Positions 10,350-37,484 of a stretch of 37,484 bases of DNA are shown piece by piece. The DNA is from a virus, in the IMG/VR virus record IMGVR_UViG_3300048839_001871, positions 1 to 37,484 of that record, one strand, 5' to 3'. A model generated the notes under the pieces. That model worked only from the letters and a program-made list of their open reading frames with translations. It made no database searches and was not told where the DNA came from. The translations under genes and the position numbers were made by a program. Every line of letters begins with the position of its first letter. Position 1 is the stretch's first letter.

Positions 10350-11158
10350 TTGCCGCGCGCAAGTTCGCGGACACCGCCCGCGCCAAGCAAATCAAGGCCA
10401 TCCACGCCATGCGGCGCGAACTCGCCCTGGCCGAGGACAGCTACCGGGCCATCGTCTCCCGCGTTTCCACGGGCCGCACCGACTCCTCGGCCGACCTCAA
10501 GCCGGCGGAACGCGCCGCCCTGCTGGACGAGCTGCGCCGCTTCGGCGCCGGCAAGAAGTCGCCCCGGAAAGCCCCCCGCCGCGCGGGGCGCCGTCCCCTG
10601 GCGCCGGGCGAGCGCCAGGCGAAAATCCGTGCCCTCTGGCTCGCCCTCTTCCAGGCCGGAGAGCTCTCCGACCCGTCCGAGGAAGCCCTGGACGCCTACG
10701 TCGCCCGCCAGACCGCCGGCGCCAAGGGGCAGGGCGGCGTCGGCGTGGCATCGGCCGCCTGGCTGGACCAAGCCACGGCCGACCGGGTGGTGAAGGGACT
10801 GCGCGGCTGGTGCCTCCGGGTCGGCGTGCCCTTGGCCAAGGCCGACAAGGTGGCCATGGTCGACCTGGGCCGCCACCAGGCCTGCCTGGACAAGGCCCCG
10901 GCCGGCTTTGCCGACAAGGTGCTGCAACTGGATGCCCTCTGGCGCCGCCTCATCGCCGTCGGCGCCATGCGCACCGGGCCCTTCGCCGACCTCGGCACCT
11001 GGCTCCGCAGGCGGGCCGGCGTCGCCGCGCCCTACTACGCCGATCCGTCCGAGATGGACGGCCTCATCGAGCGGCTGGGGGCCTGGCTCCGCAAGGAGAT
11101 GGCCGCCCGCGCCATCCCGGTGCCCCTGTCCAGGTGGATGCAGGAGAACGGCCGATGA
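10346..11158 (+). CDS. gemA: GemA/gp16-like protein (DUF1018)
   Basis: A 270-residue protein with the DUF1018/GemA N-terminal signature: KQIKAIHAMRRELALAEDSY, then SADLKPAERAALLDELRRFG (residues 14-67). The C-terminal part contains KIRALWLALFQAGELSDPSE and a helical domain typical of the longer gp16-family proteins. In Mu, GemA is an early modulator of host gene expression and DNA topology. ATG 10346 is preceded by GGAGGA (10333-10338). The TGA (11156-11158) overlaps an ATG at 11155 that leads into the leader RNA region. As in Mu it comes before the mor-type gene, but here an antirepressor module is interposed. Confidence 0.85.
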   Translation: MIAARKFADTARAKQIKAIHAMRRELALAEDSYRAIVSRVSTGRTDSSADLKPAERAALLDELRRFGAGKKSPRKAPRRAGRRPLAPGERQAKIRALWLALFQAGELSDPSEEALDAYVARQTAGAKGQGGVGVASAAWLDQATADRVVKGLRGWCLRVGVPLAKADKVAMVDLGRHQACLDKAPAGFADKVLQLDALWRRLIAVGAMRTGPFADLGTWLRRRAGVAAPYYADPSEMDGLIERLGAWLRKEMAARAIPVPLSRWMQENGR

Positions 11159-11163
11159 CCACC

Positions 11164-11192
11164 TTGACTTTCGGGGGCGGGACGCGCAGCAT
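11164..11192 (+). promoter_or_regulatory. Weak sigma70-like promoter candidate before the leader RNA
   Basis: TTGACT (11164-11169) is a good -35 match. With 17-base spacing the -10 would be CAGCAT (11187-11192), which matches only three of six consensus positions. It would start transcription at about 11199, just at the first antisense hairpin of the candidate C4-like RNA. Position is the main argument. Confidence 0.25.
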
Positions 11193-11320
11193 TCCGAATG
11201 GAGCTCAAAACTCCGCTCAGACGGAAGCCGCCCTGTTAGTTTTGCGGCTATTTTCATGCCTGGACTGTGTCCAGGATGCCCCTATGGCGGGGGTGTGGAG
11301 ATATAAGGCCCGCAAGGGCA
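11190..11320 (+). ncRNA. Candidate C4-type antisense leader RNA
   Basis: The 267 bases between gemA and the next ORF contain a run of stem-loops: CATT/AATG (11190-11200); GGAG-CTCAAAA-CTCC (11200-11214), displaying CTCAAAA in its loop; GCCGC/GCGGC (11227-11248); CCTGGAC-TGT-GTCCAGG (11259-11275); and GCCC-GCAA-GGGC (11308-11319). GCTCAAAAC (11203-11211) is complementary to GTTTTGAGC at 11347-11355, and TCAAAA also pairs with TTTTGA (11418-11423) between the ribosome binding site and ATG of the next ORF. GGCGGGGG (11286-11293) pairs with CCCCCGCC (11355-11362). A leader RNA, a small ORF and an antirepressor in this order reproduce the P1/P7 immI layout (c4, icd, ant), where C4 RNA is processed from the same transcript and represses ant. 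Family assignment is from organisation, structure and remembered similarity to other antirepressor leaders. Confidence 0.6.
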
Positions 11321-11346
11321 CGAATAATCCCGCCTGTTCTGAGCAG

Positions 11347-11422
11347 GTTTTGAGCCCCCGCCGCCAGTGGGTCTCAAAAGCTTTCTGGTGGTGCACTTCA
11401 ACGCCAACTCAGAAGGCTTTTG
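11347..11422 (+). promoter_or_regulatory. Mutually exclusive hairpins controlling the small-ORF ribosome binding site
   Basis: CAAAAGCTTTCTGG (11375-11388) pairs over 14 positions, two of them G-U, with TCAGAAGGCTTTTG (11409-11422), which contains the AGAAGG ribosome binding site (11411-11416) of the ORF at 11426. The same CTCAAAA (11373-11379) can instead pair with TTTTGAG at 11348-11354, freeing the site. TTTTGAG is also the target of the upstream leader loop (11204-11210). Binding of the leader RNA to 11347-11358 would therefore favour the closed form. This is read directly from base complementarity; the regulatory outcome is inferred. Confidence 0.55.
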
Positions 11423-11425
11423 ACA

Positions 11426-11665
11426 ATGACCTCCCTTACCTTGCCCGAATTCCGGGTCAAGCTGCACCGGGCGACCGCGCTCGCCCATTCATGGCTGGAT
11501 CGGCATGCGACCCGGCCCGACGCCACCGTATTGAGACTGGCCTTCCTTCTCTGGCGGCATGCCCGCGGGAACACGGCGCTGCGCGAAGCCCTGGTGCTGC
11601 GCGGCGCCCTGAGCGTTGCCCGGAACGCTCTTCCTCTCAAGACGAAGTTTTCCGCGAACCAATAG
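11426..11665 (+). CDS. Small ORF in the icd position
   Basis: A 79-residue basic protein (SWLDRHATRPDATVLRLAFL, then LVLRGALSVARNALPLK). ATG 11426 follows AGAAGG (11411-11416) with nine-base spacing; a TTG at 11420 is an alternative. Its TAG (11663-11665) abuts the ribosome binding site of the antirepressor, so translation of the two is probably coupled. In P1 the ORF at this position, icd, interferes with cell division and its translation is needed for ant expression. I see no clear sequence similarity to Icd, so only the position is comparable. Confidence 0.55.
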   Translation: MTSLTLPEFRVKLHRATALAHSWLDRHATRPDATVLRLAFLLWRHARGNTALREALVLRGALSVARNALPLKTKFSANQ

Positions 11666-11680
11666 AAGGAACCCAGTGTC

Positions 11681-12358
11681 ATGACCGATACCAACCTGAT
11701 TTCCGTGCCCTTCCGGGGCGACACCTAGTCCTACACCGTCCAGGACGGCGAGCAGATGGTGCCCGTCCGGCCGATCTGCGACGCCCTCGGCCTCGACTGG
11801 AAGAGCCAGCACCGCAAGTTGACCAGCAATTCGGAACGCTGGTGTGTGGTCATGATGACCACACACGATGCGTCTGGACGCGCGCAGGAGATGGTCTGCC
11901 TGCCCCAGCGTCGCCTGTTCGGATGGCTGATGACCATCCAGCCTACCAAGGTCAAGCCGGAGGTACGGGAGAAGCTGATCGCCTATCAGCGGCACTGCGA
12001 CGAGGTGCTCTACCGGCACTTCATCCTGGGCGACGCGGCCCATCCGGGGCTGCTGGCCGAACTGGAGCGGGAGCGCCGGGCCGGGGGCGAGGCGCGCTCG
12101 CAGGTGATCGCGCTGCGCCAGATCGTCCTGGCGGAGAAGCCCTTCTGGTCCCGCCTCGAACGCTACCGGCGCCTGGGCTACGACACCGCCCTGGTGGCCG
12201 ATCTGGTCGGGCGGGGCGCCCAGGAACTCCGGCGCATCGTCACCATGCTGGAAAACCTGGGCGTCCTGGACCGCGTCCCGGCCGGCCGCTGCTACGACGA
12301 GCCCCTGCCGGACGAGGCTGCCCTGTCCCGCATGGTCCGGGAGGTCGGCCATGGGTGA
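11681..12358 (+). pseudogene. Antirepressor (P22_AR_N family) with in-frame amber codon
   Basis: From ATG 11681 (GAAGGA at 11665-11670) the frame encodes MTDTNLISVPFRGDT, then TAG at 11726-11728 (codon 16), then continues in the same frame to TGA at 12356-12358. The continuation is a classic P22_AR_N domain: MVPVRPICDALGLDWKSQHR, then MVCLPQRRLFGWLMTIQPTK and VKPEVREKLIAYQRHCDEVL. A helical C-terminal part follows (residues 125-225). Phage antirepressors of this family inactivate the phage repressor. The amber codon should abort full-length synthesis; a restart at ATG 11756 would give 200 residues lacking the first strand of the domain. It may be inactive, suppressed or expressed as the short form. 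The rest of the frame shows no other damage. Confidence 0.8.
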
Positions 12359-12509
12359 GGTGGTCCGCTTCCCCCGTCCCTGGGCCGGGGCCCATCCCCC
12401 GCCCCTCGGCGCCGACGCCGACCTGGTCGCCCGCTTCCGGGCGATCCTGGCGGAAGCCCAGCCGATCGAACCGCCGCGCCGCCGCCACCGCCGGCCCGAA
12501 GCCCGGTAG
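12351..12509 (+). CDS. Small unknown ORF after the antirepressor
   Basis: A 52-residue frame starting at an ATG overlapping the antirepressor end (ATGGGTGA). It begins MGEVVRFPRPWAGAHPPP, has a short helix (DADLVARFRAILAEAQPIE) and ends in an Arg-rich tail (PPRRRHRRPEAR). The overlap with the upstream stop favours coding, but composition is biased and no family is recognised. Confidence 0.4.
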   Translation: MGEVVRFPRPWAGAHPPPLGADADLVARFRAILAEAQPIEPPRRRHRRPEAR

Positions 12510-12539
12510 CGGCACCCCGAAGATGGCGGAGGTCCGGTG

Positions 12540-12914
12540 ATGGACCTCCGCTACCTGCCCCCCCTCTTGGCCGAGGTCCGCGCGAAAGCCGGCGATGCCG
12601 CCGTGCTGCGCCTCATCGCCGAGTTTGGGGGGCAGGAAATCGTCATCCCCAGAAACGCGGCAAAAGGGCATCTCATTGCGTCGCGTTGCGGCCTCGCCGT
12701 CGAACAGGCCCTGGTGGCGCTGCGCGGCGGGGAAAAGGTGGACATCCCCAACGCCGCAGCCTGCCGCTCCCGCAAGGCCGCCCTCCTGGCCATGGACGGC
12801 AGCGGCATGACCCGTAACCAGCAGGCCAAGGCGGCCGGCGTGACATCGCGGTATGCCCGGAGGGTGTGCAAATCGGCCCCAGCGCCCCTTCCCCTTTTTG
12901 ACCGCAAAGGGTGA
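12540..12914 (+). CDS. mor: Mor/C-type transcription activator
   Basis: A 124-residue protein matching the Mor/C family, which activates middle or late promoters in Mu. The N-terminal dimerisation part reads YLPPLLAEVRAKAGDAAVLR, then LIAEFGGQEIVIP. The C-terminal HTH is at about residues 83-112 (LAMDGSGMTRNQQAKAAGVT, then SRYARRVCK). ATG 12540 follows GGAGG (12528-12532). It directly precedes the lysis and head genes, so by position it is the probable late activator; the sequence does not separate Mor from C and I see only one such gene. A tail (APAPLPLFDRKG) follows the HTH. Confidence 0.85.
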   Translation: MDLRYLPPLLAEVRAKAGDAAVLRLIAEFGGQEIVIPRNAAKGHLIASRCGLAVEQALVALRGGEKVDIPNAAACRSRKAALLAMDGSGMTRNQQAKAAGVTSRYARRVCKSAPAPLPLFDRKG

Positions 12915-13450: not shown

Positions 13451-13798
13451 ATGCGCAAGCTCACCCTTATCGCTCCTCTCCTCCTCGCGCTGGCGCTGTC
13501 GGCCTGCGCCCAGGACCGCGCCGGCCTGACGGTCGCCGAGGTGTCCTGGTGCCCGGGCCCCGACGGCCAGGCCATTATTTGCGGCGCAAAGCTGACCGAC
13601 GGCAAGGAGCGCCAGGACGTGGAGCTCTCGGTGATGCTCCCGGACGGGGGTGGGGTCGATTACAAGGCCCGCGCGGTCAAAGCCTTCGACGGCCAGCGGA
13701 TCCGTGCCGCCGTTCATGCGGCCCTGATCCGGGAGCTTGGTCAGGCGACCCCGGGCCTGGTCGACGCCATCGTCGCGGCCGTCGCGGGGGTGCCGTGA
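13451..13798 (+). CDS. Lipoprotein in the lysis block
   Basis: A 115-residue protein with a clear lipoprotein signal: MRKLTLIAPLLLALALSAC, lipobox LSAC with C19 as the lipidated residue. The mature part (VSWCPGPDGQAIICGAKLTD and onward) has two further cysteines and a helical C-terminus. It should be anchored in a membrane facing the periplasm. Its place after the endolysin suggests a spanin-like or lysis-related role, but I see no Rz partner and the mature domain is larger than typical Rz1. The stop overlaps the lipase start at 13798. Confidence 0.65.
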   Translation: MRKLTLIAPLLLALALSACAQDRAGLTVAEVSWCPGPDGQAIICGAKLTDGKERQDVELSVMLPDGGGVDYKARAVKAFDGQRIRAAVHAALIRELGQATPGLVDAIVAAVAGVP

Positions 13799-14565
13799 TG
13801 ACCGCCATTCCCGACGCCTTCCTGGCCTTCCTGGCCCGCCGGGCCCGCAAGGCCTACGCGACCGAGGCCGAAGTCCGCGCCGCCCTCGCCGCTCAAGGGG
13901 CCGAAACGGCCGGCTGGTACGAACACAAGACCTGCGAGGCCTTTCTGGCCCGCTACGACCGCCTCGCGGTCATGTCCTTCCGGGGGACAGAGCCGACCAA
14001 GGAGCCCGCCGACCTGCTGGTCGACCTGGACGCCACCAGGGCGCCGATGGTCGCCGACGGGGTGACCGAATTAGTTCACCGGGGCTTTTGGCACAACCTG
14101 GCGCCCCTGGTCTCCCGGATTTCCAAGGACGTCCAGGGCCTGCGGGGCGACGGCCTCGAAGTCTACGTGACGGGGCATAGCAAGGGCGGCGCCGAGGCCG
14201 TCCTCTACTGCCTCTGGGAGGCCCTCCACTCCCGTAGTCCGGGCAGCGCCCTGGTCACCTTCGGCGCGCCGCGCTGCCTGTCCCCCAGCGCCGCCGAGGC
14301 CATGCGAATCCTGGCCCATGCCCCCCGCCATATCCGCGTCGTGCATCGCTGCGACGCCGTGCCCCTGGTGCCGCCCATTCTGGGCGGCTACCGCCACGAC
14401 TGCGACGCGACCTGGCTGGACGGGGAGGGCGGCCTCTGGCCCACCGTCCATCCGGCCTGGGAGGCGGCCCGCCGCGCCGTCAACCTCCGCCCCGGCCGGT
14501 CGGTCAGGGACCACAGCATCGACCGCTACATCGCCGCCCTGGACAAGGCTGCCGCCCATGGATGA
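13798..14565 (+). CDS. Class 3 lipase-family alpha/beta hydrolase
   Basis: A 255-residue protein with the lipase class 3 pattern. The segment LAVMSFRGTEPTKEPADLLV provides the oxyanion region; the nucleophile elbow is VTGHSKGG with S128; VTFGAPRCLS follows; the acid residue is probably D186 (VHRCDAVPLVPP) and the histidine H239 (DHSIDRY). All triad positions are present. There is no signal peptide, so it is cytosolic unless released at lysis. A true lipase fold in the lysis block could attack membrane lipids or modify the host surface; the substrate is unknown. It overlaps its neighbours at both ends, so it belongs to the phage operon. Confidence 0.85.
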   Translation: MTAIPDAFLAFLARRARKAYATEAEVRAALAAQGAETAGWYEHKTCEAFLARYDRLAVMSFRGTEPTKEPADLLVDLDATRAPMVADGVTELVHRGFWHNLAPLVSRISKDVQGLRGDGLEVYVTGHSKGGAEAVLYCLWEALHSRSPGSALVTFGAPRCLSPSAAEAMRILAHAPRHIRVVHRCDAVPLVPPILGGYRHDCDATWLDGEGGLWPTVHPAWEAARRAVNLRPGRSVRDHSIDRYIAALDKAAAHG

Positions 14566-36131: not shown

Positions 36132-36134
36132 TTA

Positions 36135-36545
36135 ATGGCCGACATCATCGCCACCGCCACCGCCGGCGCCTCGCGCCGCGCCGCCGCCCAGGCCCTCGTC
36201 GACCAGCGGGCCGAGATGGCCCGTGCTCGGTTCGTCACGCCCGGAGAGATCAAGCAGGCGATCTACGGGCAAAAGGCCGTCGAGGCCGACCGCCTGGCCT
36301 CCGACGCCAGTCCAGATGCAGCGAACTATCCGCTGCTGGCCCCCGAGGCCGCCGCCCTGGGCGTCACGCTGGTTGACCTGGGCGCCACCGTCCGGGCCAA
36401 GCGTGACGCCTGGCTGGCCGCCGCCGGCCAGATCGAGGCCCTCTGCCAGGTCGCCAAGGCCTCGATCGAGGGCCTGCCCGCCGATGCCCCGGCCTCCGAC
36501 TACTGGACCATCATCGCCGCCATCGCCTGGCCTTTGCCGGCCTAG
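36135..36545 (+). CDS. Probable tail fibre assembly protein
   Basis: A 136-residue helical protein (ASRRAAAQALVDQRAEMARA, RFVTPGEIKQAIYGQKAVEA, ATVRAKRDAWLAAAGQIEAL, CQVAKASIEGLPADAPASD). The 'v.akr.awl.a...ie......a...i' segment resembles DUF4376/fibre chaperone C-termini. It follows the fibre by three bases, which fits a chaperone for it. Assignment is from position and weak pattern. Confidence 0.55.
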   Translation: MADIIATATAGASRRAAAQALVDQRAEMARARFVTPGEIKQAIYGQKAVEADRLASDASPDAANYPLLAPEAAALGVTLVDLGATVRAKRDAWLAAAGQIEALCQVAKASIEGLPADAPASDYWTIIAAIAWPLPA

Positions 36546-36561
36546 AGCCGGCCGGGGCGGG

Positions 36562-36588
36562 GGTTGGGGCGCTGGAACGCCCCGAACC
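36562..36588 (+). terminator. Hairpin after the fibre cassette
   Basis: GGGGCG (36566-36571) and CGCCCC (36578-36583) pair around CTGGAA, extended by GGTT/AACC with one bulge. It ends the tail operon but lacks a clear T-tract. The 135 bases up to the methyltransferase contain a second hairpin and no gene. Confidence 0.4.
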
Positions 36589-36631
36589 GGGAGTTGGACC
36601 CTCCCAGGCCGTAACCGGCCGATCACGGCCA

Positions 36632-36656
36632 TCCCGCCACCCCGTACAGGGCGGGA
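36632..36656 (+). promoter_or_regulatory. Hairpin just upstream of the methyltransferase
   Basis: TCCCGCC (36632-36638) and GGCGGGA (36650-36656) pair perfectly around an 11-base loop, ending eight bases before the AAGGAG (36664-36669) of the methyltransferase gene. It could affect translation or end an upstream transcript. In Mu the equivalent modification genes are tightly controlled, so the position is suggestive only. Confidence 0.35.
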
Positions 36657-36680
36657 GGAGAATGAAGGAGCAGGGACATC

Positions 36681-37484
36681 ATGTCCATGCGAGAGGTCCG
36701 GCCCGTGGTGCCGGTGGCCCCCTACATCGGGGGCAAGCGGAATCTGGCCGCCCGCATCATCCAGCGAATCGAGACCGTTCCCCACGCCACCTACGCCGAG
36801 CCCTTCGTCGGCATGGGTGGGGTCTTTCTGCGCCGCCGCCTGGCCCCGCCGGCCGAGGTCGTCAACGACTGGAGCCGCGACGTGGCCACCCTGTTCCGGG
36901 TGCTTCAGCGCCATCTGCCGCAGTTCCTGGATACCCTCAAGTTCCAGCTGACGACCCGCGCCGACTTCGACCGCCTGACGGCCACCGACCCGGCGACCCT
37001 GACCGATCTGGAGCGCGCGGCGCGATTCCTCTACCTCCAGCGCTGCGCCTTCGGCGGCAAGGTGGCGGGGCGGAATTTCGGGGTGTCGGTGGGCTATCCG
37101 GGGCGCTTCAACCTGACGACCCTGGAAAGGGACCTGGCGGCGGTCCATGAGCGCCTGGCGGGCGTCATCATCGAGTGCCTGCCCTATGGGGAGTTCATCC
37201 GGCGCTACGACCGCCCCGACACCCTCTTCTACCTGGACCCACCCTACTGGGGATCGGAGGGCGACTACGGCAAGGACCTGTTCGGCCGCCCCGACTTCGC
37301 GGCCCTGGCCGATCAGCTCGCCGGCATCAAGGGAGCCTTCCTCCTGTCGATCAACGACACCCCCGAGGTCCGGGGCCTGTTCGGCGGCTTCCATATCCAG
37401 GGCGTCGATACCACCTACAGCCTGCCCGGCGGCGGCCATGCCACCCGCGCCAGGGAGCTCATCATCTCCAACCGGCCGGGATAA
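36681..37484 (+). CDS. Dam-type (D12 class) DNA adenine N6-methyltransferase
   Basis: A 267-residue protein with the D12/Dam motif order: PYIGGKR (14-20) for the AdoMet-binding start, AEPFVGMGGVFLRR (39-52) as motif I, a target recognition middle part, and catalytic DPPY at 186-189 (FYLDPPYWGS). It transfers methyl from AdoMet to adenine N6, probably in a short specific sequence. No restriction partner is visible. Located at the right end, where Mu has mom, it likely protects phage DNA or affects regulation. ATG 36681 is used (ATG 36687 also possible). Its stop is the last codon of the window. Confidence 0.9.
   Translation: MSMREVRPVVPVAPYIGGKRNLAARIIQRIETVPHATYAEPFVGMGGVFLRRRLAPPAEVVNDWSRDVATLFRVLQRHLPQFLDTLKFQLTTRADFDRLTATDPATLTDLERAARFLYLQRCAFGGKVAGRNFGVSVGYPGRFNLTTLERDLAAVHERLAGVIIECLPYGEFIRRYDRPDTLFYLDPPYWGSEGDYGKDLFGRPDFAALADQLAGIKGAFLLSINDTPEVRGLFGGFHIQGVDTTYSLPGGGHATRARELIISNRPG

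Follow-up and report, generated by a model that had tools for sequence, protein, structure and literature searches.

Antisense RNAs of the C4 type are widespread (PMC2864571, PMC5320573), and the circuit in which such an RNA precedes a small ORF and an antirepressor gene (C4/icd/ant) is already known from P1 and P7. In the immI region of these phages, the elements a1 and b1 are followed by the RNA, by a second pair of elements (a2 and b2), and then by the small ORF and the antirepressor, an order that the P1 record annotates as a1-b1-C4-a2-b2-icd-ant. An antisense RNA flanked by complementary sites, together with a leader hairpin that carries a T-run, is also found in P4 (CI RNA, with seqA and seqC) and in Gifsy-1, where a small ORF likewise stands before the antirepressor (IsrK-orf45-anrP). 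The RNA family sRNA-Xcc1 (Rfam RF02221), by contrast, has been presented as an sRNA that acts in trans, is linked to virulence and resides in integrons and plasmids, and its founding member is a discrete 88-nt RNA identified by RACE and Northern blotting (PMC2996969).

The present analysis concerns a Mu-like phage represented by one IMG/VR virus record (IMGVR_UViG_3300048839_001871), all 37,484 bases of which make up the window, where a leader with the same order of elements as the P1/P7 immI region lies between gemA and mor. With a probability of about 0.85, in our estimate, this leader works as an antisense immunity switch of the C4 type, one that is built on an sRNA-Xcc1-type RNA and silences its own antirepressor operon.

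The spacing of the elements in the window and in P1, respectively, is 11 and 14 nt from a1 to b1, 71 and 74 nt from b1 to the RNA, 87 and 80 nt from the RNA to a2, 35 and 29 nt from a2 to b2, and 222 and 215 nt from a1 to the ATG, while b2 lies 18 nt from the ATG in both, over the ribosome-binding site. The C4 RNA of P1 and the core of the window RNA are both 77 nt long, and both start at the GG of TATGG[C/T]GGGG. On the other hand, the window differs from P1 and P7 in having no C4 model match, a different hairpin I core, a small ORF that is not detectably Icd, an antirepressor of the P22_AR_N type, and a Mu-like host phage. It also differs from P4 and Gifsy-1, in that it has neither an isrK nor a C4 match, and P4 controls replication genes rather than an antirepressor. 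The initial annotation had proposed a C4/icd/ant-type circuit here, which is borne out by the six pairing elements at P1 spacing, their co-variation and the antirepressor context, and is not borne out as regards the C4 family, Icd, or an intact ant.

The RNA and its family

The 267-base leader (11159-11425) is indeed strongly structured (-123.6 kcal/mol, z -4.95, 0 of 200 shuffles), and its features are collected in Table 1. The initial annotation had called its RNA C4-like, which holds for the pairing elements, the P1 spacing and the co-variation, but not for membership of the Rfam family, given that a search of 10900-12600 with the C4 covariance model (RF01695, threshold 45 bits) gave no match up to E = 10, the positive controls P1 and P4 scoring 68.8 and 74.9 bits. 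The RNA is RF02221-like instead: the stretch 11286-11370 matches the full length of the sRNA-Xcc1 model in core sequence and structure, with 40.5 bits (E 3.1e-5), which is under the gathering score of 53 bits.

Table 1. Features of the leader and of the genes behind it (positions in the window)
Feature	Position	Strand	Remarks
-35-like TTGACT of the module's own putative promoter	11164..11169	+	-10 region CAGCAT at about 11187-11192 is weak
a1 hairpin GGAG-CTCAAAA-CTCC	11200..11214	+	a1 loop seen in the fold
a1, GCTCAAAAC	11203-11211	+	complementary to a' (8-9 nt); co-varies, 2/40320 permutations
b1 target GCTCAGA	11215..11221	+	complementary to b' (7 nt); co-varies, 2/40320
Terminator-like hairpin AGCCGC/GCGGCT, then ATTTTC	11226..11255	+	seen in the fold; conserved in 8 leaders
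C4-type antisense RNA (candidate), RF02221-like	11286..11370	+	RF02221 40.5 bits; three-way junction in the MFE fold
b' antisense element, TTCTGAGC	11337..11344	+	loop and 3' side of hairpin II
a' antisense element, GGTTTTGAGC	11346..11355	+	between hairpin II and the closing stem
a2 target, TCTCAAAAGC	11372..11381	+	complementary to a' (7 nt); co-varies, 2/40320
b2 target, CTCAGAAGG	11408..11416	+	Shine-Dalgarno for the 79-aa ORF lies within it; b2 at -18 from the ATG
79-aa ORF	11426..11665	+	occupies the icd position; no Pfam, PHROG or NCBIfam match; no relative in viral contigs
P22_AR_N antirepressor frame	11681..12358	+	TAG at 11726-11728; reopens from ATG 11756

According to a DNA search, two Azospirillum plasmids or elements contain the stretch 11199-11385, and the A. 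lipoferum copy (L031) scores 61.9 bits with RF02221, while the records of two further close DNA relatives score 53.9 bits (that of L153, a metagenomic relative) and 55 and 70.3 bits (that of L154). Since these nearest relatives stand above the cut-off under which the window copy falls, the window RNA is, judged from its sequence, a divergent relative of RF02221. Conversely, P1 and P4 match C4 and give no RF02221 match, so that the models tell the two families apart; Rfam places C4 in clan CL00128 and RF02221 in no clan, and the RF02221 search of 14 control genomes gave no match.

The Azospirillum leaders (L030, L031/L252 and L249) share with the window 70-79% DNA identity over the RNA, the position of the promoter, and the six elements. 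They differ from it in their specificities, in a first ORF that directly encodes a 270-aa protein unlike P22_AR_N, and in that one Azospirillum element carries two RF02221 modules (L249 and L252), which have different a/b elements and paralogous downstream proteins. Two RF02221 modules per element were also seen in L060, L089 and L120.

In the MFE fold of 11284-11371, the window RNA forms the three-way junction of the RF02221 architecture (closing stem, hairpin I and hairpin II), with a core of 77 nt (11286-11362) closed by a 9-bp stem of 11286-11294 with 11354-11362. When the RNA is folded alone, a' is largely free and b' occupies the loop of hairpin II together with its 3' arm. Co-variation within the RNA supports this structure, as the closing stem and hairpin II of 36 members contain 87 cells in which both sides have changed, against 33.8 after shuffling (0 of 500 as high), a count that understates the closing stem because MAFFT misaligns closing stems of differing length, which also explains why RNAalifold gives two helices only.

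Pairing sites and their co-variation

The pairing elements became apparent in an alignment of the window and the Azospirillum copies, where the regions of highest variability form matched sets. Compensatory changes, by which the initial annotation could be judged, are abundant in three sets of loci. In the first set, made up of eight related leaders (the window, L030, L031, L055, L071, L099, L153 and L154), a' and b' match their own complements both upstream and downstream, each of the four pairings being reached by 2 of 40,320 permutations, which is the lowest possible count, as the two permutations are indistinguishable. The elements a and b change independently of each other: L055 and L071 share a' and not b', L055 and L099 share b' and not a', and each of these three loci has targets that match its own a' and b'.

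The second set consists of prophage loci found mostly through the RF02221 core pattern, from which representatives without a common 7-mer in the element were taken, the window and a few leaders of the first set included. In 36 of the 41 loci, b' has a match of at least 6 nt in its own downstream region, compared with 20% when other loci are taken, and its own upstream region likewise gives 36 of 41, compared with 33%; for a', the corresponding values are 17 of 25 against 19% downstream and 16 of 25 against 16.5% upstream. The permutation z is 7 to 14 for all four pairings of this set and 4.5 to 7.9 in the third, which has 18 representatives from cellular Gammaproteobacteria (the RNA being present in 25 of 369 genomes), although neither the cells nor the loci are independent events, and the co-variation figures are thus strong support rather than exact probabilities. 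Some RF02221 loci do not have some of the pairings, for example L035, L273 and L274.

In the window, b2 is complementary to b' over 7 nt. The duplex of a'b' with a1b1 reaches -25.6 kcal/mol (1 of 2000 shuffles as low), while that of the RNA with the a2-b2 region is modestly better than shuffles (52 of 2000), because the a2 and b2 sites are 26 nt apart. In all eight related leaders, the sequence TTGAC precedes the a1 hairpin by 35-37 nt, a position which suggests that the module probably has its own promoter; the scan of the leader for E. coli-type consensus promoters found nothing.

The hairpin that follows b1, with its T-rich tail, is kept in 8 of 8 leaders and is a possible attenuator, by analogy with P4 and IsrK. 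If so, the switch might work chiefly through premature transcription termination, as in the mechanism described for the P4 CI RNA (seqA, seqB and seqC; PMC4825925), an RNA that matches Rfam C4 and has an isrK-like leader, and not by blocking the ribosome-binding site. We regard this as rather unlikely, given that most loci have b2 placed on the Shine-Dalgarno, its match usually starting 13 to 19 nt upstream of the start codon, and such a placement is needed only for the control of translation; the tail, moreover, reads TATTTT, and the terminator scan did not call the hairpin, whose loop exceeds the limit of that scan.

Being self-inhibitory, the strong hairpin into which the stretch from a2 to b2 folds across the Shine-Dalgarno (z -4.27) could make the leader mainly cis-acting, or else the short a1-b1 leader RNA could be a trans activator like IsrK of Gifsy-1, given the same order of RNA, small ORF and antirepressor in IsrK-orf45-anrP (PMC4825925) and the isrK matches of the P4 and P1 leaders. 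Either role would be compatible with the antisense switch as an added layer, but as the main function it is quite improbable, since a repressor acting in trans would require just such pairing of a' and b' on both sides and such switching of specificity. Moreover, the founding member of the sRNA-Xcc1 family exists as a discrete RNA (PMC2996969), and the window has no isrK match.

Downstream genes and the Mu-like setting

The 79-codon ORF reported in the initial annotation is real, and its position is that of icd, but no relation to Icd is detectable, as searches of Pfam, PHROG, NCBIfam and viral contigs gave no family or convincing relative. A small ORF precedes the antirepressor in L069 and L131, as in the window and in P1. 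Unrelated small ORFs were also seen directly behind the RNA in L069, L131, L144, L254, L257 and L259.

The antirepressor domain reported next to it is equally real (PF10547, P22_AR_N, 3.6e-34, 117.8 bits, profile positions 20-114 of 115; PHROG 524, Ant, 3.9e-39), but its frame, read from ATG 11681, is interrupted by an in-frame TAG at codon 16 that had been overlooked. An uninterrupted product could therefore arise only from an internal start, such as ATG 11756, which omits the first 19 profile positions, and the antirepressor of the window copy may be dead or shortened. A shortened product is conceivable by analogy with ant2 of P1, which also starts internally according to the annotation of the P1 record.

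Given this TAG, and the absence of the module from all 48 Mu-like relatives, the module could be decayed cargo, acquired and then either inactive or providing only superinfection immunity through its RNA. This is doubtful, considering that the module keeps all six pairing elements intact, along with the 79-aa ORF and its Shine-Dalgarno, that the start at ATG 11756 is available, and that the TAG, being read from a single virus record, could be an assembly error.

The antisense switch is also favored by the genes that follow related RNAs elsewhere. Among the first ORFs behind 38 RNAs, matches were found to P22_AR_C (8), KilA-N (8), Rha (5), Bro-N (5), AntA (4), P22_AR_N (3) and ORF6N (3), one protein being able to match more than one family. 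The RNA lies ahead of ant in Aaphi23 and Rac-SA53, of the antirepressor of Bordetella IFTN1, of KilA-N in Acinetobacter 4316, and of a BRO gene on a Pseudomonas plasmid, and it is left unannotated in all of these records. In four cellular loci with pairing elements (L253, L255, L278 and L279), the gene directly behind the RNA encodes a SymE toxin (PF08845), which fits the report of sRNA-Xcc1 upstream of symE in the commonest integron cassette of Xanthomonas (PMC12444791).

This gene context, with antirepressor or SymE genes directly behind the RNA, also bears on the role described for sRNA-Xcc1, which has been tied to HrpG/HrpX control and to many predicted host targets (PMC2996969; PMC12189769). 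It is very improbable that the window RNA is such a trans-acting regulator of host genes, with incidental local complementarity, as the local pairing co-varies far above chance in three sets of loci.

A different RNA, int-alpA (RF02996), was seen about 100 nt upstream of ant in L004, L005, L015 and L025, and downstream of it in L006. The ant genes next to it are related to that of the window, and the RNA ends in a 3' T-run in the four upstream loci; it is possibly another RNA control of ant.

As for the phage itself, the window encodes MuA transposase domains, Portal_Mu (2.8e-103), GemA (PF06252, 2.5e-31) and Mor (PHROG 836, 1.1e-17; Pfam Mor 23.2 bits, slightly below the cut-off of 24.9), which mark it as Mu-like. 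The interval between the gemA stop at 11158 and the Mor start at about 12540 holds the structured leader, the 79-codon ORF, the P22_AR_N frame and a 52-aa ORF. The description of the module as inserted here, made from the sequence, is justified: gemA and mor overlap in Mu and directly adjoin each other in L163, L164, L165 and L208, and the RF02221-type RNA is absent from 48 Mu-like relatives, many of them fragments, which were reached through the terminase after a GemA pattern search had given no relatives, the positive control being that the same search finds the window and other virus records. For these reasons, the module of RNA, ORF and ant looks acquired by the phage.

Elsewhere in the window, a class 3 lipase domain (PF01764, 1.6e-18) is encoded at 13549-14565, just past an endolysin-like ORF, and an ORF of similar look sits upstream of the terminase in the relative L160. 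At the right end, 36132-37439 on the opposite (-) strand is a 435-aa ORF without a Pfam match.

Proposed action of the switch and its meaning

Taken together, the elements, their positions, the structure, the co-variation and the gene context suggest the following mode of action. Transcription from the promoter just upstream would yield one transcript of a1-b1, the RNA and the operon of the small ORF and ant, from which the RNA would be cut out, its three-way junction presenting b' in a hairpin loop and a' as single strand. As the 3' end of the RNA has no terminator, the RNA presumably undergoes processing of the kind that RNase P carries out on C4 (Hartmann 1995, as cited in PMC5320573).

The released RNA would then pair in trans with a2 and b2. 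With the Shine-Dalgarno lying inside b2, this would keep the first ORF from being translated, and ant, which lies behind the 79-aa ORF, would be silenced through coupling, together with any action on its presumed target repressor. Pairing with a1-b1, followed by the T-tailed hairpin, may add feedback or an early, P4-like termination. A prophage would in this way silence its own antirepressor operon and that of an incoming phage with the same a/b specificity, and a joint change of a and b would create a new specificity.

RF02221, although catalogued as a virulence-linked trans-acting sRNA, thus seems to be an antisense immunity RNA of the C4 type. A description of sRNA-Xcc1 as a C4-type RNA was not found in the accessible papers that mention it, and it is apparently unreported. 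We consider it likely that the family is a second, separate lineage of the C4/CI type, with a switchable two-part specificity, which controls prophage antirepressor operons and, in an antitoxin-like manner, SymE toxins, its role in virulence being secondary or mistaken.

This reading would provide a mechanism and a natural target for an RNA family whose annotated members occur in many Proteobacteria and are usually taken for virulence sRNAs, and it would make prophage cross-immunity predictable from two short elements that can be read in the DNA. Mu-like phages, which are usually understood through their protein repressor, would gain an RNA-based layer of immunity at the junction of early and middle genes. 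Finally, the loci with symE suggest that one phage immunity device may have been put to a second use in mobile elements, that of keeping SymE toxins in check.
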